A stretch of DNA of 64,000 bases from a virus. This document shows positions 18,656 to 32,849 of this stretch, piece by piece (positions within the stretch are counted from its first letter, which is position 1; each line of letters begins with the position of its first letter). Position numbers and translations under genes: made by a program. Under the pieces are notes generated by a model. It made no database searches and was not told the DNA's origin. It saw only the letters and a list, made by a program, of their open reading frames with translations. The DNA lies in IMG/VR virus record IMGVR_UViG_3300032805_000004, positions 1 to 64,000 of that record. One strand, written 5' to 3'.

Positions 18656-18750
18656 TCAAGAATACGGAGTTGTGTCACTGACTTGCAACCCCTGGAGAAT
18701 ACCGGAGTAGAAAGGCGCCGACGCAACGAGGGCGCCAAAGAGGAAGCGAT
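18656..18750 (-). CDS. Major capsid protein, exon 4
   Basis: After splicing, T from exon 3 plus AT here makes TAT (Tyr), followed by RFLFGALVASAPFYSGILQG and ten more residues to TGA at 18658-18656. The sequence reads as a natural capsid C-terminus continuing NVQFSLNY. Without splicing the capsid would end at TGA 19008 and lose these 31 residues. Confidence 0.85.
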
Positions 18751-19009
18751 CTGTTACCCCCCGCTAAGCGGGTGGGCTGGTCATTTCTGCCAGCCTCTGC
18801 ATCTTTCCCATCGATGCAGACCGGACTGTCTCACGCTCTGCGGCCGGGCGCCCGTAATGCCCCGGGTGGCCGTCCATAACACAGAGCCAGCACGTACAGT
18901 CTCTACACTGCGGCGGGCATCGCCGCAGCTCGGGATTCCCCAGCAATTGGAGGGGTTCCCCGAACAGTGCCGTTTTCCACGGCAGGTCACCCTGCCGCGC
19001 CACCCATTC
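18751..19009 (-). ncRNA. Group I intron 3 of capsid gene (259 nt)
   Basis: The 5' exon ends in U (AAC-T) and the intron ends GTAACAG, so the last base is G. Inside are a P2-like hairpin (CGGCAGG-GTGA-CCTGCCG), AATTGCTGGGG (P3/P4 region), P7 halves GACTGT (in AGAGACTGTACG) and ACAGTC (in GAGACAGTCC), and a P8 stem GCTCTG/CAGAGC. The 3' hairpins include the 25-base block shared with the other two introns. It has no ORF. The pairing of the P1 substrate helix could not be settled by eye. Confidence 0.85.
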
Positions 19010-19971
19010 AGTTCAGCGAGAACTGGACGTTGTTGATGGAATAGCGGAACGAGGCATCGATGACGGGCCAGGCGATAGACGCGTAATCTTGTACACACGT
19101 CATTTCCCAGGCATTAGCGACATTCGTCCACGTCTGTGGCAACTGGTAGGACATCAGGAGTGCGGTGCCCTGGGTGAGCCACGGGTGGACGACCAGCTTG
19201 AGGATGGATCGGGTGATGGGGTTCTGGAACTCGCTGACCGCTGCGCCGACGCGGACGCCGGCGACGTCGGGCTGGTCGAGGAACAGCCGGTAGTTCGTGG
19301 CCGTGCCCTGCGAGATCACATCGTTGGACAGGCGCATGATGTCGCCGCCGTCACCGACCAGCTCAGCCGGGTCAGCGCGGAACGCACCCGGCGTAGTAGA
19401 ACCGGTCTGCGACTCCCACAACGCGTCAAGCGCCGTGTAGATGGTGTTGTACCCGAGGTGGGTGCCCACACCCTGGTTGACGTAACCGCCCTGCCAGTTC
19501 GCCGGGTACACACCCGCAGTCGCGGACCTGCCGGTCAGGGTGGGGATGATCCCCTCCATGCGGGTCGCCGCACCAGTACCGGTGTCAGCCGCCGGCGGCG
19601 CCGCAGTCGTAGTGATGATCGCACCCTGAACCGTGTAGCGGAGACCGCCGATCCCGGACACCTGCTTGAGGCAGGCCGTCGAAGCCGACGCGCCTGTAGC
19701 GGAGAAGGCGTAGATATTCCACGACAGGGCACCTGGCGGCAGGGTCACCGTCAGGTCAAACACGGATGTACCGGACGTGTACACGGCGTCGATCACATTG
19801 GATGCGACGGTTTCGCCGTAGTAGTTGGTTGCGGTCACACAGAACGACAGGTGAGTGCTGACGTCCGTTACTGCGGTCTCGTTCGAGCCGGGAGTCCGGG
19901 CAGTCGCCGACACCAGCGTTGGCGGTATCAGGGTTGTCGATGTGCCGGCGAGCATCATGTACTCTTCCGCG
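19010..19971 (-). CDS. Major capsid protein, exon 3
   Basis: 962 bases. The first C completes a Leu codon with exon 2, then AEEYMMLAGTSTTLIPP and 303 further codons to a final T. Residues about 15-130 of this exon look like an inserted Ig/fibronectin-type domain (THLSFCVTATNYYGETV, then LPPGALSWNIYAFSATG). The rest is HK97-fold material, including GDIMRLSNDVISQGTATNYR and VVHPWLTQGTALLMSYQLP. Read alone it would start at Met 19958 and stop at TGA 19008, but both ends fit the introns better than natural termini. Confidence 0.9.
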
Positions 19972-20257
19972 CTGTTACCTCTCGCTTACTGAAAAGCGAG
20001 CGGGCTGGTCATTTCTGCCAGCCTCTCATGCTTTCACATGAGGCCGGACCATATCTTCACCCCACGTGGGGTGCCACGTACATGGTCTCTGAACCATCCC
20101 GTCGGAGCGAATCCAGGCGGGCTCGGCTGCTGATTTTCCCTACCCTTGGCTTCTCGAACCGTCGCGCTCGGGCTTTCGCCCCACGCTGTGGTGCCAAGGT
20201 CTAACAGGATGTCCCAGCAATTCTCGCGGTTTAGGCTGGGCAAAGAGGTCTCAACCC
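19972..20257 (-). ncRNA. Group I intron 2 of capsid gene (286 nt)
   Basis: The clearest group I core of the three: AATTGCTGGGAC (P element), AAAATCAGCAGCCGAGCC (Q), GGTTCAGAGACCATGTACG (R) and GAAGATATGGTCC (S). P7 pairs GACCAT with ATGGTC. P5 is CTTGGC/GCCAAG and P8 is the palindrome CACCCCACGTGGGGTG. It ends AGGTAACAG, after U in the 5' exon. It encodes no protein. Removing it joins ATG ATG CT to C GCG GAA GAG in frame. Confidence 0.92.
20002..20026 (-). repeat. Shared 25-bp intron 3' block, copy in intron 2
   Basis: The plus-strand block beginning gggctggtcatttctgcc is identical at 18774-18798, 20002-20026 and 20314-20338. On the RNA strand it forms the GGCTGG...CCAGCC hairpin (P9 region) just before a second, variable-stem hairpin and the terminal GTAACA. 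Confidence 0.9.
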
Positions 20258-20285
20258 AGCATCATTTCCTGTAGCAAAATGCACG
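20258..20285 (-). CDS. Major capsid protein, exon 2 (28-nt microexon)
   Basis: Only CG TGC ATT TTG CTA CAG GAA ATG ATG CT. With a T from exon 1 and a C from exon 3 it encodes S-CILLQEMM-L, joining LANLN to AEEYMM. Both boundaries obey group I rules (U before the intron, G at the intron end), and the joined peptide is a sensible helix leading into the capsid core. Confidence 0.82.
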
Positions 20286-21300
20286 CTTGTTACTCACCAT
20301 CCCTGGGATGGCGGGGCTGGTCATTTCTGCCAGCCTCTGCACGTCTCCGTGCAGGTCAGACTATGTCTCCATCTGGTTTAGGTATCGGACGCAGGTTTCT
20401 TGCCCCTCCGGCTGCGGATGATCGCAACCGGGTCCTCCTCCGGATACAGGCCGAACCGCTTAACGAGATGCTCAACACAGCCATCTACATCGGCTTCGAC
20501 CTGCTCGTTGGTGAACCGGACGACCGTGTAGCCAGCATCGCTGAGCGCGGCATCGCGCTGCCTGTCGAACTCTGCGGCTGCTGGCATCTGGTGTCCCCAG
20601 CTGTCGATCTCAACAATGACCGGCTGCTGGTGGAGCTTGATGTCAGGGTAGTAGCGGTCCAGCTCGCGAGACTGTGTCTCGAAGCTGAGCGCGGCCCTGA
20701 TTAGTGTCTGCTGGAACAACTGCTCCTGCGGCGAGTTCATCTTCGGCGACTGCAATCCGAGTCGCCGGAATCGCTCACGCTGGGCTCCCTGGAAGGCGCC
20801 GCGTTCTGTAGCTTCGCGGCGCTTCTCGTACTGCTCCGGCCCCCATGTCCAGCCGTCGTGGCCGCTCCTGCGCATTTCCGTACCAGACATCCAGAGCCGC
20901 AGGTAGATGCTGCTCTGACTGCTGTGGAATCGCTCAGCAAGTTCAGAGGCGGTAGCGCCGTCCTCGTAGAGCTTGCGAAGCTCGTCAGGGTCTAGGTGTT
21001 CTTGCCGCCATCGTCTACGGCTGTTGACGCCTAGTTCTTTGGCCTTGCGGCTGACGGTTTCGGGAGCGACACCGTACTCCTTCGCTACGGCCTTGAAGGA
21101 ACCCAGTCGTTCGTAGTCCGCCCGGAGGTTGTTCCAGTCCAATCCAGATGCTCCGCGTGTAGTCGTTACGGCTCGCCCGCTACGTGCGGGATTGCCTCGG
21201 CGTTGTCCACATGACCCATCATATCATGGATGATGATGGCGAAGGAGGTTCACCGATACAGCGGAGATCCCATCCGCACGTCACCGTGCGGTGGCCCCCT
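20286..21300 (-). ncRNA. Group I intron 1 of capsid gene with endonuclease gene (1015 nt)
   Basis: It starts after CTC AAT T and ends GAGTAACAAG. Before the ORF are a P2-like hairpin (CCGCACG-GTGA-CGTGCGG), CTCCGC that pairs with GCGGAG (P3), GAGGCAATCCCGC and the R-like GTAACGACTACACG. After the ORF comes GAGACATAGTCTG (S). P7 pairs GACTA with TAGTC. The endonuclease ORF therefore sits between R and S, in the P8 loop. The end has the same hairpins as introns 2 and 3. The P1 pairing is not certain, so the 5' splice base could be off by a few positions. Confidence 0.85.
20378..21142 (-). CDS. Intron-encoded HTH/Vsr-like endonuclease
   Basis: 254 residues from a TTG start. Residues 1-90 contain two HTH units (FKAVAKEYGVAPETVSRKAKELGV and ASELAERFHSSQSSIYLRL). 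Residues 145-245 are a Vsr/DUF559-type nuclease: NSPQEQLFQQTL (helix with Glu), DRYYPDIKL (Asp), VIVEIDSWGHQM (Glu plus His) and FDRQRDAALSDAGYTVVRF. The same architecture is found in the intein-antisense gene at 47966. It is predicted to cut intronless capsid genes so the intron is copied in. Its stop lies eight bases before the intron S element, so ORF and ribozyme are tightly packed. Confidence 0.85.
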   Translation of the reverse strand: MDWNNLRADYERLGSFKAVAKEYGVAPETVSRKAKELGVNSRRRWRQEHLDPDELRKLYEDGATASELAERFHSSQSSIYLRLWMSGTEMRRSGHDGWTWGPEQYEKRREATERGAFQGAQRERFRRLGLQSPKMNSPQEQLFQQTLIRAALSFETQSRELDRYYPDIKLHQQPVIVEIDSWGHQMPAAAEFDRQRDAALSDAGYTVVRFTNEQVEADVDGCVEHLVKRFGLYPEEDPVAIIRSRRGKKPASDT

Positions 21301-22105
21301 AATTGAGGTTTGCTAGCGCGGAAATGTCTTCGAATCCTTGCCCGGCGAATTGGGCGAGCCAGGAAAGGGATTCCGTAAGCCCGAAGAAGCGGTACGGTAC
21401 CGCCAGATTCACTTCGGTCTGTGCGCCGGCGCCTGGCAGGTTGTTCGGCCAGTTCGCGGCACCGAGGCCACCGCCGGCCTGCACCAGTTCGGGGATCGAG
21501 ATGTCGACGACGCCCTGGCCGCCGGTCTGTGATCCGGAGATGCCGGTGATGACACGTTCTTGCCGCATGGTGCCTTGGCCTTGTGGCCGAGGTAGCTTGT
21601 TGCGGAAAACGGTATAAACCGGATAAATGAGACGAGATGGTGCAAGAAGGTCAAACGGGACCAAACCGGACACGGTGCCGATCCCGAGATTCCCTGCGGT
21701 GAAGGACTTGAGCGCGTCGGCGCCGCCGGGCATGCCGCTCACGAGCTGGGTGAGCTGGTCACCGATCGACGGCATCGACAGGGCGGCCTTCAACCGGCCG
21801 AACTGGTTGAGGAAGCCCTGGTCGAAGCCTTTGTTGACGACCGCGTGTTTGTCGTTGTAGCCGCGCCATGTTTCGGTGCGGAGTGCCATGGTGGCGGTGT
21901 GGGTGCGGGTAGCGATGTCGGCCTGGTCGGTCAGCGGGGTGTTCCCGCCGGGCTGGGAGAACCCGGCGCCTTTGACCATGGCAGGCATCCGGGCTTTGAT
22001 CATGTCGCCGGTGCCGCGTGCCCCGGCTGATTCTGCTGCGGCCTGCTCGAAGACGCCGCCGGGGGCGGTCGCTCCGTCGATGGCCGGCGGTGTGGTGGTT
22101 GCCAC
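21301..22105 (-). CDS. Major capsid protein, exon 1
   Basis: GTG start at 22105 with AGGAGG three bases upstream. 268 codons plus one base, beginning MATTTPPAIDGATAPGG. It contains TATMALRTETWRGYNDKHAVVN and DLLAPSRLIYPVYTVFRNKLPRPQGQG, then ends TESLSWLAQFAGQGFED-ISALANLN. It is followed by an in-frame TAG three bases into the intron. Exons 1-4 (805, 28, 962 and 95 nt) total 1890 nt, 629 residues plus stop, with one continuous frame. The HK97-like fold is inferred from position after the protease-scaffold and from the final YRFLFGALVASAPFYSG. A domain is inserted in exon 3. Confidence 0.9.
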
Positions 22106-22132: not shown

Positions 22133-24850
22133 CTAGGGGAGTCCGAGGAGCCGCTGGATCGCCTTGTAGGCGTTTTCGCGGGTCGCCGGGTCCGGGTCGG
22201 TGCGCCACGTCTGGGTGAGGTCGTTCAGCAGCGTCCCTTGTGCGGTGGACGCTGCTTTCTGGACCGCGCTGGCAGGCTCCGCCTGGGCACGCGCGGGCGG
22301 GTAGCCGGACATGAGTCCCTTGAATGGGGGGTCTCGCGGGTCCGGCATGCGTGCCATTTCCTCGACCTGGGCCCGGAGTTCGTCGTAGTCGCGCCGCGAC
22401 TTTTCGAGCTGGGCGTGCAGATCACCGATCTGCTTGGTGAGGTCTGGGCTGGTGATGGTGTTGCCGACCGCCGCCTTGTTGACGGTGGAAGTTTTGTCGG
22501 TCCCGGCCTGTGGTGGTGGGACTGGCTCGGGTTCGGCTGTCTTAGTCACATCCGGTTCGGGCTGGGCCGCGGGCGGCTGGGCCGTCTTGCCGGACATGGG
22601 GCACAGGTCGGGGAACGTCTGCGCGATGTGGTCGTGCATGGACTGCATCGCGCTGCGGGCCGAGTCGCGGGTGGCGTTCGTGTAGAAGGTGCGGCCTGGG
22701 CGTCCCGTCGCCGCGGGCGGCGTGACTTTGTCGTTGGAGCCCTCGTCGCTGGACGGGGACGGCCGTTCGTGGCCGGCGGTGACCGGGCCGCGGTTGTAGT
22801 CACCCGCGTCCGGCCTGGTCGTCGGAACTTTCACGTCCGGTTTGCCGACGGTGTAGCCGGTGGAGGGCCGTTCATGCCCGGCGGTGAGCAGCGGCCGGTT
22901 GTACCGCCCGGCCTGCATGTCCCCTGGTGTCAGCGGTGAACCGGGGCCGGGGTTGGCGTCCTGGAACGCCTTGTGGAGCTCGTCGTGGACGCGGGCCAGC
23001 TCATCCGGGCTGGCCTCTTTCAGGGTTTCGGCGTGCCGCCACAGATCGGTCGCGTGGCGGGCTTCGTCGATGGGTGCCCCGGCGGCCTTGTCGACTGCGC
23101 GGTCCCGCCAGTAGCTGATGTCGACGGCGTCGCGGACGTCGGCGAGCCACGGGTAGGTGTCGCCGAGGGTTTTCGCTGAGTAGGCGGGGCAGAGCAGGTC
23201 GTGGAGGATCGCTTCGCCGGGGTGGGCGCCGGTGGCGGCGCGGCGGCGGGCGGCTTTCACCTCGAGCGGCGCGTCGGGGACGGTCGGCAGCCCGGCGTCG
23301 TGTTCGAGTGCTTCGATGGCGGGGCCGTCGGGTTCGCGGTGTTCCGGTACCGGATCGACGTTGATGCCCATTGCGTCGTCGCCGGGGGTGGGCTTGGCGG
23401 TCTTCTCTACGGCAGGGAGTTTCTTCCCGCAGTTCTCGCAGAATCTCGCCGGCGAGTCGGAGTGGTAGTTTTTCCCGCAGCCGTGGCAGGCTTTGCCGCC
23501 GGATTTGAACGCGGCCTGCGGCAGGCTGCCGCCCACCTGCTTCTTCGTGGTCTCTTCCTCGCCGGGGCCGCCGGGAGTGATGGCGCCGTCGCCGGCGCAG
23601 TCGGGGCATCTGCGGTTGCCGGCGAGGATTTTGCCGGAGCCCTTGCATGTCTTGCACTTCGTACCGGCCGTTTTGACCGCTGCGGCGCCCTTGGCTGCTT
23701 TGCGGGCGGCCTTGGCGGCCTTCTTCCCGGCCATCTCGTCCCGCCATGCCTGCGGCAGCTCCGCCACAAACGACGGGCCTTTCCGCTTGGCGATGCGGAT
23801 GATGTTCGACTTCAGTTTGTCTGAGCTGAAATTGTCTGCGCCTGCGCGGCCGATGGATGATGCGGCATCGGACACGTCGCCGGGTGTGACGATCGGGAAG
23901 GACCGGTTTTTCCCGGCGAAGTCCTCGGCGGGGATCTTGTCGCGGTCTACGCCGCCTCCGACGTCGGGGTCCATCTTGCGTTTGCTGATGCTGGGGGCGC
24001 CGCCGGTTTTGCCTACTTGTTCGTCGGCGTCGTCGGCTTCGATTTCGGCGTCGCTGGCCTCGGCGTCCTTCTGCTCACCCGAGTCGTCGCCGGATGCCCC
24101 ATCCCCATCGTCTCCGTCATCGTCCCCGTCGTCCCCGTCGTCCCCGTTTCCATCCCCGTCGTTGTCATCACCGGCCTTACCGTTGCTACCGTTGCTGCTA
24201 CCGCCTTTCTCCAGCTCGGCGCGCAGCCGCAGCAGTTTCGCCATGTCCGCCGGGGTGAACGTCACCGTCCCCGTGATCCCGCCGTCGTCTGGTGCGGCGG
24301 CCTTCGCGAGGAAATCCTCCGCGCCGAACACCTTCCCCGTCAGCTCCGCCGTCCCATCCGCAGCCGACTTCACCAGCTGGATGGAGCAGTTACCATTCGC
24401 CGGCCGGTCCACCAAGCTGAGCTCAGACAGCACCCCGCCTTTGATCAGGCCACCGCGGGCCTTACCGGTGATATCCCGTTCAATCACCGGCCGGGAGATC
24501 CCCACGCTGTAGGCGCGCAGTACCCCTTTCTCGACGAGACGCTTCGCTACGGGTTCGACGATGAGGGCCTTGACGTAGTGACCGTCCTCGGTGAACTCAA
24601 CACCGACGCCTTTACCGGCCGGGTCGCGCTGCGCCTGATGCTGGACGCGGACGTTCCCGCCTGTCTCCAGCCAGTCGGCGAGCGCTTTCCGGGACCAGGC
24701 CGGGTCCACGATTTGCTCATCGCTGTCCACGGTCCCGTCTGTAGCGCGGCCAAAGACCAGGAGATCCCCGTCTGCGTCCTTCTCGAATTTTTCGATGGGG
24801 AAGTGGGCGTAGGTGAGCAGATCGCTGTCAGCGGTCATTGTGGCGGCCAC
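22133..24850 (-). CDS. Prohead protease fused to scaffold-like domain
   Basis: 905 residues from the GTG at 24850 (AGGAGG just upstream); a longer open frame upstream is Arg/His-rich, lacks a ribosome site and is rejected. Residues 5-175 resemble XkdF/HK97-type protease: YAHFPIEKFEKDADGD, GGNVRVQHQAQRDPAGKG, RAYSVGISRP and SELSLVDRPANGNCS, with His and Ser as likely catalytic residues. Residues 220-330 are acidic and Ser/Asp-rich. A DUF6582-like segment (DFAGKNRSFPIVTPGDV) follows, then two four-Cys zinc sites (CKTCKGSGK...CPDCAGDG and CHGCGK...FCENCGKKL). A long helical/Pro-rich tail probably acts as scaffold. Confidence 0.85.
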   Translation of the reverse strand: MAATMTADSDLLTYAHFPIEKFEKDADGDLLVFGRATDGTVDSDEQIVDPAWSRKALADWLETGGNVRVQHQAQRDPAGKGVGVEFTEDGHYVKALIVEPVAKRLVEKGVLRAYSVGISRPVIERDITGKARGGLIKGGVLSELSLVDRPANGNCSIQLVKSAADGTAELTGKVFGAEDFLAKAAAPDDGGITGTVTFTPADMAKLLRLRAELEKGGSSNGSNGKAGDDNDGDGNGDDGDDGDDDGDDGDGASGDDSGEQKDAEASDAEIEADDADEQVGKTGGAPSISKRKMDPDVGGGVDRDKIPAEDFAGKNRSFPIVTPGDVSDAASSIGRAGADNFSSDKLKSNIIRIAKRKGPSFVAELPQAWRDEMAGKKAAKAARKAAKGAAAVKTAGTKCKTCKGSGKILAGNRRCPDCAGDGAITPGGPGEEETTKKQVGGSLPQAAFKSGGKACHGCGKNYHSDSPARFCENCGKKLPAVEKTAKPTPGDDAMGINVDPVPEHREPDGPAIEALEHDAGLPTVPDAPLEVKAARRRAATGAHPGEAILHDLLCPAYSAKTLGDTYPWLADVRDAVDISYWRDRAVDKAAGAPIDEARHATDLWRHAETLKEASPDELARVHDELHKAFQDANPGPGSPLTPGDMQAGRYNRPLLTAGHERPSTGYTVGKPDVKVPTTRPDAGDYNRGPVTAGHERPSPSSDEGSNDKVTPPAATGRPGRTFYTNATRDSARSAMQSMHDHIAQTFPDLCPMSGKTAQPPAAQPEPDVTKTAEPEPVPPPQAGTDKTSTVNKAAVGNTITSPDLTKQIGDLHAQLEKSRRDYDELRAQVEEMARMPDPRDPPFKGLMSGYPPARAQAEPASAVQKAASTAQGTLLNDLTQTWRTDPDPATRENAYKAIQRLLGLP

Positions 24851-24888
24851 ACGCCTCCTAGGCGGGGATGACGGACAGTGGAAGGTGT

Positions 24889-27800
24889 TCAGGCGGGCCG
24901 CAGGAGGACCGCGGGTTGCTGCGTGATGAGCTGCTGCCCCGGCGGGTCGATGTGCGCGGGGGCAGCAGGGGCGATACGCCCTGGTGGGGTGACATCGACG
25001 CCCATAGGTGGTGCGAAGACGACGTCGATGGTCATCGGTGCCGCCGGGTTGATGACGATGGTCATCGGTGCTGCGGGTGCGGCGAGAACCGTGACGGGTG
25101 GCGGCACCGCCGCCGGCGGCGGCGGTGGCAGGTTGACCGGGCCGGTGATGCCGTGCGGGATGGTGACCCCGCGTGCGGGTGGCGACTGGAACCTGATGAT
25201 CGGGACCGTCGGCTGCGGCGTGCCCAGCGGCGGCGGTGGTGTGACGACCCGGGAGGCGAACCCGCGCCACAGAACCCGGTGCGGGGCTGGCCGGATCGCC
25301 TGCGGCGGCAGCGGCCGGTGCAGTACCGGGAGGCTGCCGAGCGGGGTGACGATCGCAGATGCGATCCCTGCGGCGATCTGGCCGCGTGGGCCGACCTGTG
25401 CCCGCGCCGGACTGGGCCGTTTAACCTGCGGCGCGGGCCGCTGGTAGGCGGTGACAACGGGTGGCGCCGGCGGCAGGTTGGTCGGGCCGTGAACAGGGCG
25501 GGGGCCTGTGTGGGCGCGTGCCGGTGGTGGTGGCCGGTATTCGACGATCGGGACGGTTGGCTGCGGCGCGCCCAGTACCGGGGGTTTGGCGACGGCCAAA
25601 CCGTGCCAGATAGCCCGTGCCGGGGTGGGACGCCGGATCTGCGGTGCGATGCGCTGGTAGGCGGTGACCGGGATGGGCGGCGGGGCGGCGGGGCCGGCGG
25701 CTCCGTACCACAAGACGCGCCGTGGCGGCGGCGGCCGGTATTCGACAACCGGGACAGTGGGCTGGGGTGTGCCGAGCGCGCGGAGTATGTAGGAGGCGAT
25801 GCCACCTGCGGTGCTCCCGTGCCCGACCCAGGCGCGGGCCGGGGCCGGGCGGCGGATCTGCGGTGCGATGCGCTGGTAGGCGGTGACAACCGGCGGTACC
25901 GGGGTGACGATCCGGGATGCGACACCGCCGGCCAGGGCTCCCCGCGGGCCGAGGCATGCGCGGTGCGGTGCGGGACGCTTGACCTGGACCGGTGGGCGCC
26001 GGTAGGCGGTGACGACCGGTATGAACGGCGGCGCAGACCCCGCGAGGCCGCCCCGCAGTCCACGGGGGACACGTACCGGCGGCCGGTATTCGACCACCGG
26101 GACTGTGGGCTGGGGGACGCCGGGGGGGATCGGGGGGTAGACGAGGGACCGCTGGATGTGCCCGGCGCGCAGGAAGACGACGCGGACACCGGCTGGCTGC
26201 GGAAGCCCGGGTGTGACGGCCGGCTGGTAGGGCGAAACGGCGGAGGTGAATACCCGGCCGTAGCGGCTGAGCGGCCCTCCGCTGCCGCCGGTAGCTGCGG
26301 GTGCGGCGGCAGCGGCACCGGATGCGGGCAGCGGCGAGACGGGCAGCCGGGCGGTGACCGGGCCATGGAGCGGGTAGAACTGTGGCCCGGCTGTACCTGG
26401 GGGCAGGTTGGTGAGGCCGCGGACGCCGCCGGCGACTGGGTTGTGGCCGGTCCATGCGCGGGTGATCTTCGGCGGGAACTGCGGGATCTTGCGCGCTGGC
26501 GGGGTCGACCCGAGTGGGGTGACAATCCGTGACGCGATACCGGCGCCCAGCGCGTCCCGGGCACCGGTTCTGGCGCGTGCGGGGGCAGGGCTGCGGAAGA
26601 TGAACGGGTACGGGCGGGCTGGTGTTCCGTACGGGGATGGGTTGACCAGCCCTATCTGGCCGGCGCCGACGGTACGCCGCCCGGCGGTAGCGCGCGTGGT
26701 TTTCGGCGGGAAGATCGGGACTTTCCGCGCGGGCGGGATCTGCCCTAGCGGGGTAATGATCTGCGAGGCGTAACCGGTGGCGGGCAGGCCGCGGGGGCCG
26801 AGGTGCGCCCGCGCGGGTGCGGGACGCTTGACCTGGACCGGTGGCCGCTGGTAGGCGGTGACGACCGGTGGCAGGTTCTGGGTGGCGAGCCCGCGCCACA
26901 GGATCCGGTGCGGCGGGTGCTGGATGACCGGCCGGGGTGGCGGCTTCGGGGCGCTGCCCAGCGGGGTGGCAACCGCAGAGGCGATACCGGACGCTGCCAG
27001 GCCACGCGGGCCGAGCCTGCCACGCGCCGGGGCGGGGGACCGGAAGACGAACGGCTTCGGCCGTGACGGTGTCCCAAGCGGCGGTGTGACGGCTGTGGCG
27101 GCGATACCGCCCGCGACCACACCACGGCCGATCCGGGCACGTGCCGGTATGACGGACCGGAAGACGATCGGTGAGATGAACGGCTGCGGGTAACCCAGCG
27201 GGGTGACGATCTGCGACGCGAGACCATCGCCGCATGCCAGGTTGCTGCCGAGCCGGGCACGGGCGGCCGGCGGGGACCGGAATATGAACGGGTGTGTCCG
27301 CAGCGCCGCCACAGCCGACGGGTAGTTTCGGGTGGCGACGCCGCGCCACAGCACCCGCCGTGGGGGCAGATGCTGGATGACGGGCCGTGGGGCAGGCTGC
27401 GACGGTGAACCAAGCGGGGTCGAAACCGCGCTTGCGACACCGCCCGCAGCCTGACCACGCAGGCCAAGCCGTGCCCTCGCCGGGGGGACGTGGACGAAGA
27501 CGGGGCGGGGCGGTGGCTGCTGCCGGAACCCGAGCGGGGTGACAATCTGGGATGCGACCCCGGCGGCGAGGAATGTGCCGGGGCCGATCTTTGCCCGGTG
27601 CGGCGGCAGGTGAACGATGACCGGACGCGGCGCAGGCTGCGGCGGGTAGCCCAGCGGTGTCACAACATGGGATGCGACACCTGCTGCAACTGTTCCGCGT
27701 GGCCCGCAGCGGGCACGAGCAGGCGCCGGGCTGCGGAACACGAACGGTTTCGGCGTTGCAGCCGCGCCGAGCGGGGTCTGCACCCCGCTGCGGCCAGCGC

Positions 27801-29726: not shown

Positions 29727-31115
29727 CTAAGGTCCCCGCAGCACAAGAAGCCAGTCGGCCTCGCCCAGCGAGTTGGTGCCGGGATGGTTGTAGGTGGGTG
29801 CGATCGTCGCCGCTGTTGTCGCGCCGCTGACCGGGTCGATCCAGTGGGCGGTGTAGCCGCTGACCATCAGCGCCCCGTTGACGGTGATCGTCGCATTCGA
29901 CGGGATGTAGATCACCGCGAGGGTGCCGCCAGGTGTGATACTCGCCGTCACGTACGTATTGCCGCCGGTGTACTGGGTTCCGGCGCCGCCGGACTGGATC
30001 TGCGGGGCGTGGGTGCCCCGCCCGGCGGTCACCAGCGTGCTGCCGGTGTCTGGTACCAGCAGATGCCAGCCGGGCAGCGCACCGAACGTATTCCAGATGA
30101 TGTTCAGGTCCGAGTTGTCGAACTCGTTATTCGTCAAGTTCGCCAGCGCACTCGTGTCCCAGCCGTAGATGGACTCACGGCCATACAGGAAACCCCGCGA
30201 CCCCGAGCTCAGCGACCACCACTGCAGGATCCGGTTGAAGTCGCGGTACGTGTTGTCGCCGCCGTTGCCCTGGTCGTAGTAGCCGTCGGAGTGCAGCACC
30301 GTGATAGGTGACGCTTCCGTATAGGCGTATTCGAGGACGTCATAGCCGACATTGTAGGAGTAGCAGAAGTTGAAGTTCGCATACGCAGTACCCAGCGCAA
30401 ACACCGAGTTGTTGTAGCAGTCGAACCGGCTCGTTGATTCGTCGTAGTTTTCAACCGACACAAGATGTGTGTCACCAGTGTTTTTGATACCGGTAAGCAG
30501 CGCACCCAACTGGGTGTCATAGGTCCCGAAGTAATCTTCACCGACCGTCCAGATAATGTTCGGGTAGCCTTTGTACCGGTTCCCGAGCGCGGTGCCGTAG
30601 TTGGTGAACTGGCCGGTGGTCTTGTTGTACAGCGCCCCGCCGGAGTCGTCTAGTGACGTGGTGGTCCCGACGTTCATGAACACGGTCATGCCGTTGTTGC
30701 GAGCTGATGTCAGCAGGTAGTCGACCCGCGCCCAGTAGGCGTTTGTGAGCGTCCCCGGGTCCCCGCCAACGAACGGGAGGATCCCATCCCACGTTTCGCC
30801 GTTGACGTTCACGCCGCCGTGGACCGTGGTCGGCGGAACCGCTATCTCCGTGGCGTTGAAACCTTGTGAGGCGCGGATCGACATGTAGTTGTCGATGTCC
30901 GACTGCCAGGTGACCGAACCCCCCGCAGCGCCGGCGTTGACCGGCAGTGCCCAGACTGTGTCGGACCGGACCATTATCGGGTTGCTGTTGGCGTCGGTGA
31001 AGTATTTCGCCGCACCAGACCCCGCAGTCCCGGTGATAAACGACGGGCCGCTCACACCCTGCGGGGAGGCAGTGTTCACCGATGCGACCCAGGCCGGGTT
31101 CACTATTGGGCGCAT
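29727..31115 (-). CDS. Apiosidase-like glycoside hydrolase, copy 2
   Basis: 462 residues. ANSNPIMVRSDTVWALPVNA near the start, then YMSIRASQGFNATEIAVPP, YPNIIWTVGEDYFGTYD and SRGFLYGRESIYGWDTSAL, match the DUF4038/apiosidase-like TIM-barrel family; acidic residues in GEDYFG are candidate catalysts. The C-terminal 90 residues (VIYIPSNATITVNGALM ... HWIDPVSG) are the collagen-binding-2-like beta domain that usually follows. It is four bases downstream of its paralogue. A role in degrading a host surface glycan is inferred. No secretion signal, so it is probably displayed on the particle. Confidence 0.8.
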   Translation of the reverse strand: MRPIVNPAWVASVNTASPQGVSGPSFITGTAGSGAAKYFTDANSNPIMVRSDTVWALPVNAGAAGGSVTWQSDIDNYMSIRASQGFNATEIAVPPTTVHGGVNVNGETWDGILPFVGGDPGTLTNAYWARVDYLLTSARNNGMTVFMNVGTTTSLDDSGGALYNKTTGQFTNYGTALGNRYKGYPNIIWTVGEDYFGTYDTQLGALLTGIKNTGDTHLVSVENYDESTSRFDCYNNSVFALGTAYANFNFCYSYNVGYDVLEYAYTEASPITVLHSDGYYDQGNGGDNTYRDFNRILQWWSLSSGSRGFLYGRESIYGWDTSALANLTNNEFDNSDLNIIWNTFGALPGWHLLVPDTGSTLVTAGRGTHAPQIQSGGAGTQYTGGNTYVTASITPGGTLAVIYIPSNATITVNGALMVSGYTAHWIDPVSGATTAATIAPTYNHPGTNSLGEADWLLVLRGP

Positions 31116-31118
31116 GGT

Positions 31119-32849
31119 TTAGCCGCAGACCACGACGGCGGTCCACACCCCGGCGTAGCCGCTGACAGTTGCAGACGACGAATAGTTCACCGTCAGCGAC
31201 ACGTAGTCGACGGATTCGGTCGCCCCGGCAGATGCGGTGCCCTGATGCCCGAAGATCCGCACCCGCAAGGTGGCGAGCTGGCTGTAGCTGACCCCGGTAA
31301 ACGTGGCGGTTGACACGTTCGAGCTGGAAGTAGACGCCGTCCCGGTCTGGGTGGTGCCGATCTGCGCCGTGCCGGCGTCCCACAGCTGGAAGGTGCACGC
31401 CCCCATCGCCGACGTGGACTGGAACTCGCCGATGCTGACAGTGACCGAGTTGATGATCGAGGTGGAGTCGATCCCAGCGAAGCTGCCGAACCCGGATACC
31501 TCAAGGGCCGGGGAGGTTTCCGGGACGGTGGACTGCAAAACCAGCAGCCAGTCCGCGGCGCCTGCCGAGTTGGTGCCGGAATGGTTGTAGGTGGAGGCTT
31601 TGGTGGCTGTTGTCACTGCGCCGTTGACCGGATCGATCCACTTTGCGACGTAAGGTTTGGCCATCTGGGTGTCGCTGACCGTGATCGTCGCGTTTGACGG
31701 GATGTAGATCACGGCGAGGGTGCCGTCGGCGGTGATGCCTGCCGTGACGTAGGTGTTTCCGCCGGTGTACTGGGTTCCGGCGCCGCCGGAGGCGATCATC
31801 GCTTTGTGGGTGCCCCGCCCGGCGGTCACCAGCGTGCTGCCGGTGTCTGGTACCAGCAGATGCCAGCCGGGCAGGCTGGCGAATGTGTTCCAGATGGTGT
31901 TCAGGTCGGAGTTGTCGAACGTGTTGTTCGTCAGGTTGGTGAGGGCGCTGGTGTCCCAGCCGTAGATGGCTTCGCGGCCGTAGAGGAAACCGCGTGATCC
32001 GGAGCTGAGAGACCACCACAGCAGGTTACGGCAGAACGAGCGATAGGTATTATCGCCAGCGTTGCCCTGATCATAGTAGCCGTCGGAGTGCAGCACCGTC
32101 AGCGGTGACGCCTCACCGTAGGCGTATTCGATGACGTTATAACCGGTGTTGTATGAGTAGCAGGTGTTGTACTGCGCGTAGGTGGTGCCCCATGCCATCA
32201 CGTTGTTGTTGTAAATGTCGAAACGGCTGGTTGACTCGTCGTAGTTTTCGATTGACACCATGTGCGTGTCACCGCTGCTACGGATACCTGTCAGCAACGC
32301 GGTCAGCCGCGAGTCGTAGGTGCCGAAGTAGTCTTCGCCGACGATCCAGATGACATTCGGGTATGTTTTGTACCGGTTCCCGAGCGCGGTGCCGTAATTC
32401 TGGAACTGGGTGGTTGTCTTGTTGTACAGCGCCCCGCCGGAATTATCAATGGCGGTGGTAGTGGCGACGTTCATGAACACGGTCATGTTCTGGTTCTGCG
32501 CCGACGTCAGCAAGTAGTCGACCCGGGCCCAGTAGCCAGAAGTCAAAGATCCCGGGTTGCCGCTGGCAAACGGCAGGATCCCGTCCCACGTTTCGCCGTT
32601 GTCGCTGACAGCGCCATGCACACTGGTCGGCGGCACTGCGATCTCGGTGGCGTTGAAACCCTGCGACGCCCGCGTCGACATGTAGTTGTCAATATCATTC
32701 TGCCAGGTGACCGCGCCGCCTGCCGCGCCCGCATTCACCGGCAGCGCCCACACCGTATCGGCCCGGACCATGATTGGGTTGCTGGAGCCGTCGGTGAAGT
32801 ACTGGCCGGTGCCCGATCCAGCGGTTCCGGTGATGAACGGCCCGCTCAC
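31119..32849 (-). CDS. Apiosidase-like glycoside hydrolase with extra beta domain, copy 1
   Basis: 576 residues from a GTG that overlaps the upstream TGA (GTGA). Residues 1-430 parallel the neighbour almost block by block (MSGPFITGTAGSGTGQYFTD, YPNVIWIVGEDYFGTYDSRL, SRGFLYGREAIYGWDTSAL). It has an additional C-terminal 140-residue beta domain (SALEVSGFGSFAGIDSTSI-like strands, then GSSATVSGYAGVWTAVVV). Conserved acidic residues of the barrel are retained, so both copies may be active. The tandem arrangement and DNA similarity indicate gene duplication. Confidence 0.8.
   Translation of the reverse strand: MSGPFITGTAGSGTGQYFTDGSSNPIMVRADTVWALPVNAGAAGGAVTWQNDIDNYMSTRASQGFNATEIAVPPTSVHGAVSDNGETWDGILPFASGNPGSLTSGYWARVDYLLTSAQNQNMTVFMNVATTTAIDNSGGALYNKTTTQFQNYGTALGNRYKTYPNVIWIVGEDYFGTYDSRLTALLTGIRSSGDTHMVSIENYDESTSRFDIYNNNVMAWGTTYAQYNTCYSYNTGYNVIEYAYGEASPLTVLHSDGYYDQGNAGDNTYRSFCRNLLWWSLSSGSRGFLYGREAIYGWDTSALTNLTNNTFDNSDLNTIWNTFASLPGWHLLVPDTGSTLVTAGRGTHKAMIASGGAGTQYTGGNTYVTAGITADGTLAVIYIPSNATITVSDTQMAKPYVAKWIDPVNGAVTTATKASTYNHSGTNSAGAADWLLVLQSTVPETSPALEVSGFGSFAGIDSTSIINSVTVSIGEFQSTSAMGACTFQLWDAGTAQIGTTQTGTASTSSSNVSTATFTGVSYSQLATLRVRIFGHQGTASAGATESVDYVSLTVNYSSSATVSGYAGVWTAVVVCG

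Follow-up and report, generated by a model that had tools for sequence, protein, structure and literature searches.

A phage major capsid gene predicted to be interrupted by three group I introns of a lineage residing mainly in virion genes

We analyzed the first 64,000 nucleotides (nt; hereafter the window) of the 78,255-base virus record IMGVR_UViG_3300032805_000004 from IMG/VR. Four minus-strand coding segments of this window form a single open reading frame (ORF) once the three insertions between them, which have group I features, are removed, as the initial annotation of the locus had stated. Its central proposal, three group I introns in a major capsid gene, is upheld by intronless relatives, covariation and an HK97-fold model, while its junctions and its product of 629 amino acids (aa) are replaced here. 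The corrected layout is as follows, in window coordinates and with a slash at each splice site; relatives are denoted by L numbers.

18656..22105, minus strand: major capsid protein gene, four exons and three introns, predicted spliced product of 616 aa
22109..22114, minus strand: AGGAGG, resembling a ribosome-binding site, upstream of the GTG start (read from the sequence)
21306..22105, minus strand: exon 1, 800 nt, 3' end ...GCAAACCT (spliced alignment)
20282..21305, minus strand: intron 1, 1024 nt, U/CAATTAG...GTAACAAGCGTG/C, phase 2, with an endonuclease ORF inside (spliced alignment; 3' domain 86.9 bits)
20378..21142, minus strand: intron-1 ORF, 254 aa, helix-turn-helix (HTH; HTH_7) and DUF559, putative homing endonuclease (domain matches)
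20254..20281, minus strand: exon 2, a 28-nt microexon, CATTTTGCTACAGGAAATGATGCTGGGT (intronless relatives, spliced alignment, codons of L044)
19968..20253, minus strand: intron 2, 286 nt, without ORF, U/TGAGACC...GTAACAGCGCG/G, phase 0 (spliced alignment, covariation, pairing P1)
19036..19967, minus strand: exon 3, 932 nt (spliced alignment)
18747..19035, minus strand: intron 3, 289 nt, without ORF, U/CAACAACG...GTAACAGATCG/C, phase 2, second core type (spliced alignment, covariation)
18656..18746, minus strand: exon 4, 91 nt including the stop codon (spliced alignment)
20283..20373, minus strand: conserved 3' domain of intron 1, comprising the P7 3' strand, P9, the shared hairpin and the 3' splice site (model R1)
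19968..20061, minus strand: conserved 3' domain of intron 2 (model R1)
18747..18838, minus strand: conserved 3' domain of intron 3 (model R1)
22133..25270, minus strand: upstream gene, 1045 aa, weak head-maturation-protease match (phrog_80, phrog_9427; PHROG match)

Relatives of the joined protein were collected from 49 viral loci first and from many more later. The intron junctions are fixed by at least 33 relatives, 33 of them aligned, in which the gene is a single uninterrupted ORF and whose consensus reads ...GQGFEDISALANL-ILLQEMMLG-EEY... and ...VIDATFRYSI-FLYGAL.... Splice sites were placed by a purpose-written spliced-alignment program using a profile of the intronless capsids, with the 5' exon ending in U and the intron in G. 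As this U/G rule was imposed, it is not independent evidence in the relatives; for L052, L046 and L050 the GTAACA tail was added as a bonus. In the window, where the junctions are independently set by the intronless relatives, all three introns (3/3) have a U before them and a terminal G, and all three close with a tail of the GTAACA(n)G type (GTAACA(A/G)...G). The joined exons (800 + 28 + 932 + 91 nt) amount to 1851 nt, which encode 616 aa plus a stop codon and restore the consensus of the relatives. This comparison shows that the predicted introns occupy exact codon positions of conserved motifs. Unspliced read-through reaches a stop after 2, 0 and 9 codons in introns 1, 2 and 3, respectively; a capsid ending at Asn before 19008, the outcome that the initial annotation had named as speaking against splicing, corresponds only to read-through into intron 3 (INNVQFSLN*). 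Peptides predicted to be diagnostic of the spliced 616-aa capsid are ALANLILLQEMMLGEEYMMLAG, YSIFLFGALVASAPF and YSIFLFGALVASAPFYSG.

The identity of the protein was addressed by structure prediction. An AlphaFold model of the intronless relative L004, computed with 77 relatives, reached a predicted local distance difference test (pLDDT) value of 75.9 and matched HK97-fold capsids (SPO1, Z 19.2; SU10, Z 17; HK97, Z 16), the structure matches listed being capsid or encapsulin chains. On this model, the gene is identified as a phage HK97-fold (SU10-like) major capsid gene. An earlier fold from 29 sequences (pLDDT 44) matched just an immunoglobulin (Ig)-like insertion domain and was set aside. 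Residues 290–400 of the L004 capsid form a well-predicted inserted Ig/fibronectin-like domain that resembles domains of phage tail proteins. Sequence searches against Pfam, PDB and PHROG did not name the capsid, save for one SU10_MCP match in one relative. In the distant relatives THSA-485A and Polewnik the gene order is terminase, portal, a gene of unknown function, capsid gene, connector and tape measure; in the window, the protease-like gene upstream means that the gene order fits a capsid.

Evidence from selection points in the same direction. Compared with its closest relative L044, which has five introns itself, the spliced frame gave a ratio of nonsynonymous to synonymous substitution rates (dN/dS) of 0.147 over 602 codons; near the junctions, dN was 0.07 and dS 1.20, and the microexon codons are the same in L044 except for one synonymous change. 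The comparison shows the predicted spliced frame to be under purifying selection.

In addition, we examined the structure of the intron RNAs. The ORF-less introns of the capsid family fall into two core types, with intron 2 in one and intron 3 in the other. With P3/P7 drawn as a pseudoknot, standard pairs occupy 93.7% (12 sequences) and 95.0% (13 sequences) of the cells, compared with 72–75% after shuffling, where none of 500 shuffles reached the observed value, and 31–43% when the partner was slid; changes on both sides were found in 45 of 67 and 53 of 71 pairs of the two core types. The slide control is favourable because the structures were drawn from members of the same alignments, so that the shuffle control together with the many double changes is the stronger argument. 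The covariation supports P3–P9 (the P3/P7 pseudoknot, P4–P6, P8 and P9), with introns 2 and 3 included. P1, with a U.G at the 5' site, spans 7 base pairs (bp) in intron 2 (GCUGGGU/GCCCAGC) and 5–6 bp in intron 3, and the P1 score of 5.28 fell to 4.35 when exons were swapped between introns (maximum of 200 shuffles, 4.80).

The conserved 3' domain was captured in a 90-position model, R1, built from 29 sequences including the three window introns. Over the whole 78-kb record, R1 found the three capsid introns at 76–87 bits, followed by a next match with an E value of 0.75; as the window introns are among the model-building sequences, their scores follow by construction, and the informative part is that no others were found. 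The 3' domain of intron 3 resembles the tail-gene intron of mycobacteriophage Baka at the nucleotide level. R1, built without BAKA, matches BAKA at 69.6 bits and ends at locus position 778, which is genome position 28,450 and the 3' splice site of the BAKA intron, whose splicing was confirmed by reverse transcription PCR (RT-PCR) (Pope et al. 2013, PMC3706429). The LittleE capsid intron is another R1 match, at 57.5 bits. By this shared 3' domain, the window introns can be assigned to the LittleE/BAKA intron lineage.

Introns were found in about 20 further contigs of the capsid family, one to five in each by spliced alignment, with R1 and visual inspection adding further ones. The count is five in L044; L154 carries four and, close to the N-terminus, a fifth. 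L050 has five clear introns, and beyond the last of them an exon of 8 nt holds the closing codons (Y)S-stop. At 7523-7770 of L050 lies a sixth intron (column 282) with a type A core, without the shared 3' hairpin or a terminal G at the expected place. The shortest internal exon measures 16 nt; it is found in L154 (GGGAAATGACCATGGT), where it restores NAWEMTMVQDY, and L041 has another. Other short internal exons are 27, 27, 28, 29, 29, 37, 37, 42, 45, 50 and 54 nt long. Overall there are about 25 intron sites. All 24 distinct sites in the alignments fall within three stretches covering 120 of 619 columns, whose limits were drawn after the sites had been seen and which include a doubtful site in L046; a minimum of two further sites (L121 near the C-terminus and the last intron of L050) fall at the margin of these stretches or beyond it. 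Mean identity is 0.89 around intron sites versus 0.70 gene-wide. In 33 of 47 introns, reading on in frame past the 5' site meets a stop within five codons; the two other frames give 13 and 8 such introns. This is the pattern expected if ribosomes have to stay out of the folding intron. The first intron of L046 (5600-6030) resembles a fusion of two neighbouring introns, and the exon expected between columns 159 and 167 (LAPSRLI) is absent, so that damage to this capsid or an assembly error is possible. The idea that core types alternate around microexons to avoid skipping was dropped, since inspection by eye gave a difference in type between adjacent introns in about 8 of 13 cases, a share no higher than chance would give. 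A scan of genome contigs found one relative only, L054, on a contig binned as Armatimonadota (a metagenome-assembled genome).

The distribution of these introns suggests mobility. For sites occupied in more than one phage, the best match lies at the same site for 22 of 34 introns, with 1.3 expected, and none of the 47 introns has its best match in its own phage, which rules out recent duplication within one gene. Since an intron's nearest match usually occupies the corresponding site of another phage and never comes from its own gene, the introns probably arrived separately by homing. Intron-bearing capsids are scattered on a FastTree phylogeny of 96 capsids (19 of 96 rows, at least 13 presence changes; the change count is approximate, as L121 was labelled intronless). 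Typical clusters combine one ORF intron of about 0.9–1.3 kb with one or more short introns, and most intron ORFs, like that of intron 1, share by eye an HTH region and a nuclease region of the VIIEADG..H type. The intron-1 ORF matches PF04480 (DUF559; E 5.5e-12, above its cut-off) and PF02796 (HTH_7; E 2e-7). We take DUF559 to have a PD-(D/E)XK (Vsr-like) fold. Some introns of the lineage carry LAGLIDADG-type ORFs (L198, 3894-4634, E 8e-36; L046, 6346-7282, on the opposite strand, by eye), and therefore endonucleases of different classes have been swapped in.

Beyond this capsid family, viral contigs were searched, irrespective of gene content, for 22 bases of the shared hairpin; this motif occurred in at least 118 stretches, a sample limited by the requirement for an exact motif. 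We classified 66 non-redundant frames lying directly downstream of R1 ends, among the matches listed; 19 of 99 loci were left out for want of a downstream frame of 60 aa, and some frames matched nothing. The families found overlap and comprise Phage_capsid (22), Phage_capsid_4 (13), Phage_capsid_3 (9), SU10_MCP (6), P22 coat (2), Mu gpT (1), portal families (about 5) and the T4 gp19 tail tube (1), and every family of known function among them is a virion or packaging protein (PHROG: 25 of 37 families). The same 3' domain occurs at 58.8 bits in the ribonucleotide reductase gene region of Lactococcus phage AM1. Because of this counterexample the preference for virion genes, strong as it is among the matches listed, is not absolute. 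Several loci pack between five and seven R1 matches into about 2 kb (L193/L202, 1492-3662; L192, 5663-7719; L165, 9574-11515); L192 has a Phage_capsid_3 match, while the genes of L193 and L165 gave weak matches only. Elsewhere in the window, two adjacent minus-strand genes (29727-31115 and 31119-32849) carry apiosidase-like glycoside hydrolase domains (PF13204, E ~1e-28) and perhaps encode tail-associated enzymes.

We consider it very probable that this HK97-fold capsid gene is split by three group I introns and self-splices to yield a 616-aa capsid. The transcript would splice three times by the two-step guanosine reaction, with P1 and its U.G at the junction setting each 5' site and the terminal G past the conserved GTAACA(n) tail setting each 3' site, and four exons, one of only 28 nt, would be joined into the capsid message. 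Stop codons just past most 5' sites would halt ribosomes ahead of the intron core. The introns would be mobile elements that arrived separately by homing; the PD-(D/E)XK-type endonuclease of intron 1 could carry the neighbouring ORF-less introns along by co-conversion (collaborative homing), and the lineage would reside mainly in virion genes.

Several points weigh against this explanation. We infer splicing of the capsid transcript from DNA comparison alone; likewise, it is domains and layout that suggest an active endonuclease and collaborative homing. The Rfam group I model (Intron_gpI, RF00028) does not recognise intron 3, scores intron 2 at 49.9 bits (E 6.7e-11), which is 0.1 bit below the gathering threshold of 50, and reaches 20.1 bits on part of intron 1; no Rfam family passes its gathering threshold anywhere in the window, the three introns included. 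A LOOT RNA match to intron 2 (E 0.05) was taken as a chance overlap. The covariation sets consist of ORF-less introns, intron 1 being tested via its 3' domain alone, and the P1 of intron 1 has just 3–4 bp. Finally, the fold (pLDDT 76) was modelled for L004, an intronless relative, rather than for the window protein.

One alternative keeps the same three introns with the junctions first proposed (21300-20286, 20257-19972 and 19009-18751) and a 629-aa product. The resulting frame is open and each intron so defined ends in G, but the junctions are displaced by 4–26 nt from the corrected ones, intron 3 being in fact 30 nt longer. The joins LANLN-S-CILLQEMM-L-AEEYMM and SLN-Y-RFLFGAL add residues (N-S-C; NNVQFSLN-Y-R) that are missing from all 33 intronless relatives in the alignment, where the sequence is LANL-ILLQEMMLG-EEY and FRYSI-FLYGA; the corrected joins restore this consensus exactly, and the corrected intron 2 site has the 7-bp P1 with U.G at the junction. 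We regard these earlier junctions as scarcely credible; the microexon length of 28 nt survives by coincidence, its position being shifted by 4 nt to 20281-20254. Hardly better is the prospect of a broken gene: the insertions would be decayed introns that have lost the ability to splice, in a phage that is defective or relies on a different capsid. Carrying three insertions should be costly for a late gene that is essential, and odd copies do occur among the relatives (L046; the column-282 intron of L050), but the exon dN/dS of 0.147, the conserved microexon codons, the intact covarying cores and the splice-site rules kept in the window argue for function; a second capsid gene was not noticed in the parts examined.

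Regulated or alternative splicing, with skipping of the 28-nt exon or intron retention giving capsid variants or timed late expression, is unlikely, though not as remote as the two foregoing readings. Tandem group I introns with skipping of the exon between them are known from Twort orf142 (23-nt exon) and the polymerase of phage SIOphi (PMC10136302, PMC11878797), but skipping of the 28-nt exon here shifts the frame and leads to a stop within a few codons, short exons of the relatives mix frame-keeping and frame-shifting lengths, and unspliced reading of the capsid stops after 0–9 codons. An advantage to the intron bearer would add to the favoured explanation of three self-splicing introns: the intron-1 endonuclease might cut intronless capsid genes of co-infecting relatives. 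Interference by an intron-encoded endonuclease has been described for PhiPA3 and PhiKZ (PhiPA3 polymerase intron; PMC11620839, discussed in PMC11878797), intronless relatives are common, and the intron-1 ORF has an endonuclease-type domain; as the argument draws on domain homology only, we hold this advantage to be a possibility with the odds somewhat against it. Closer to an even chance, while still tentative, is a broader proposal: a dedicated intron lineage specialised on virion genes, chiefly unrelated HK97-fold capsid families, may form stacks of up to six introns with exons down to 16 nt inside the gene and 8 nt at its end, in clusters moved together by the endonuclease of one member, with capsid genes as an arena of competition between co-infecting phages.

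In the initial annotation, three introns in one capsid gene had been called exceptional. The multi-intron capsid holds, but Twort orf142 and LittleE are precedents, and the gene is typical within its own phage group, where relatives have up to five or six introns. LittleE has a single capsid intron (PMC3706429). Like the window introns, those of the LittleE capsid and the BAKA/Optimus tail genes belong to the same lineage, reside in virion genes and have a U before and a G last; in contrast to the window, their splicing was shown by RT-PCR, each gene has one intron and no microexon, and the LittleE endonuclease lies on the opposite strand (PMC3706429). Twort orf142 also combines three group I introns in one virion gene with a 23-nt exon, but it encodes the tail tube, its introns 2 and 3 closely resemble one another, and exon skipping was reported (Landthaler and Shub 1999, as described in PMC10136302 and PMC11878797). 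Its introns give weak R1 matches (21–28 bits), and no window intron has its nearest relative in its own gene. The tape-measure gene of ICP1 likewise has three introns in one virion gene, with endonuclease content differing among isolates; it differs in the gene affected and in its HNH-3 endonucleases, and microexons are not described in the excerpt of PMC10448857.

The open-access literature yielded no report of capsid genes with three to six introns, of 16-nt exons or of a capsid-centred intron lineage. Precedents thus exist for the window gene itself; neither the scale nor the preference for virion genes has one in the open-access literature searched, and this wider pattern is the interesting part. 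Viral genome catalogues probably overlook or fragment capsid genes of this kind, and the natural series of one to six introns with very short exons offers a test of the limits of tandem ribozyme splicing, exon skipping, translation coupling and collaborative homing. Introns of Bastillevirinae number up to three per gene, as in the window, and show exon skipping, but they occur solely in genes for polymerase, terminase, reductase and thymidylate synthase (PMC11878797). That study, from 2025, asks why phage introns colonise only genes of nucleotide and DNA metabolism (PMC11878797); the capsid lineage would reverse this pattern, filling the most expressed structural gene.

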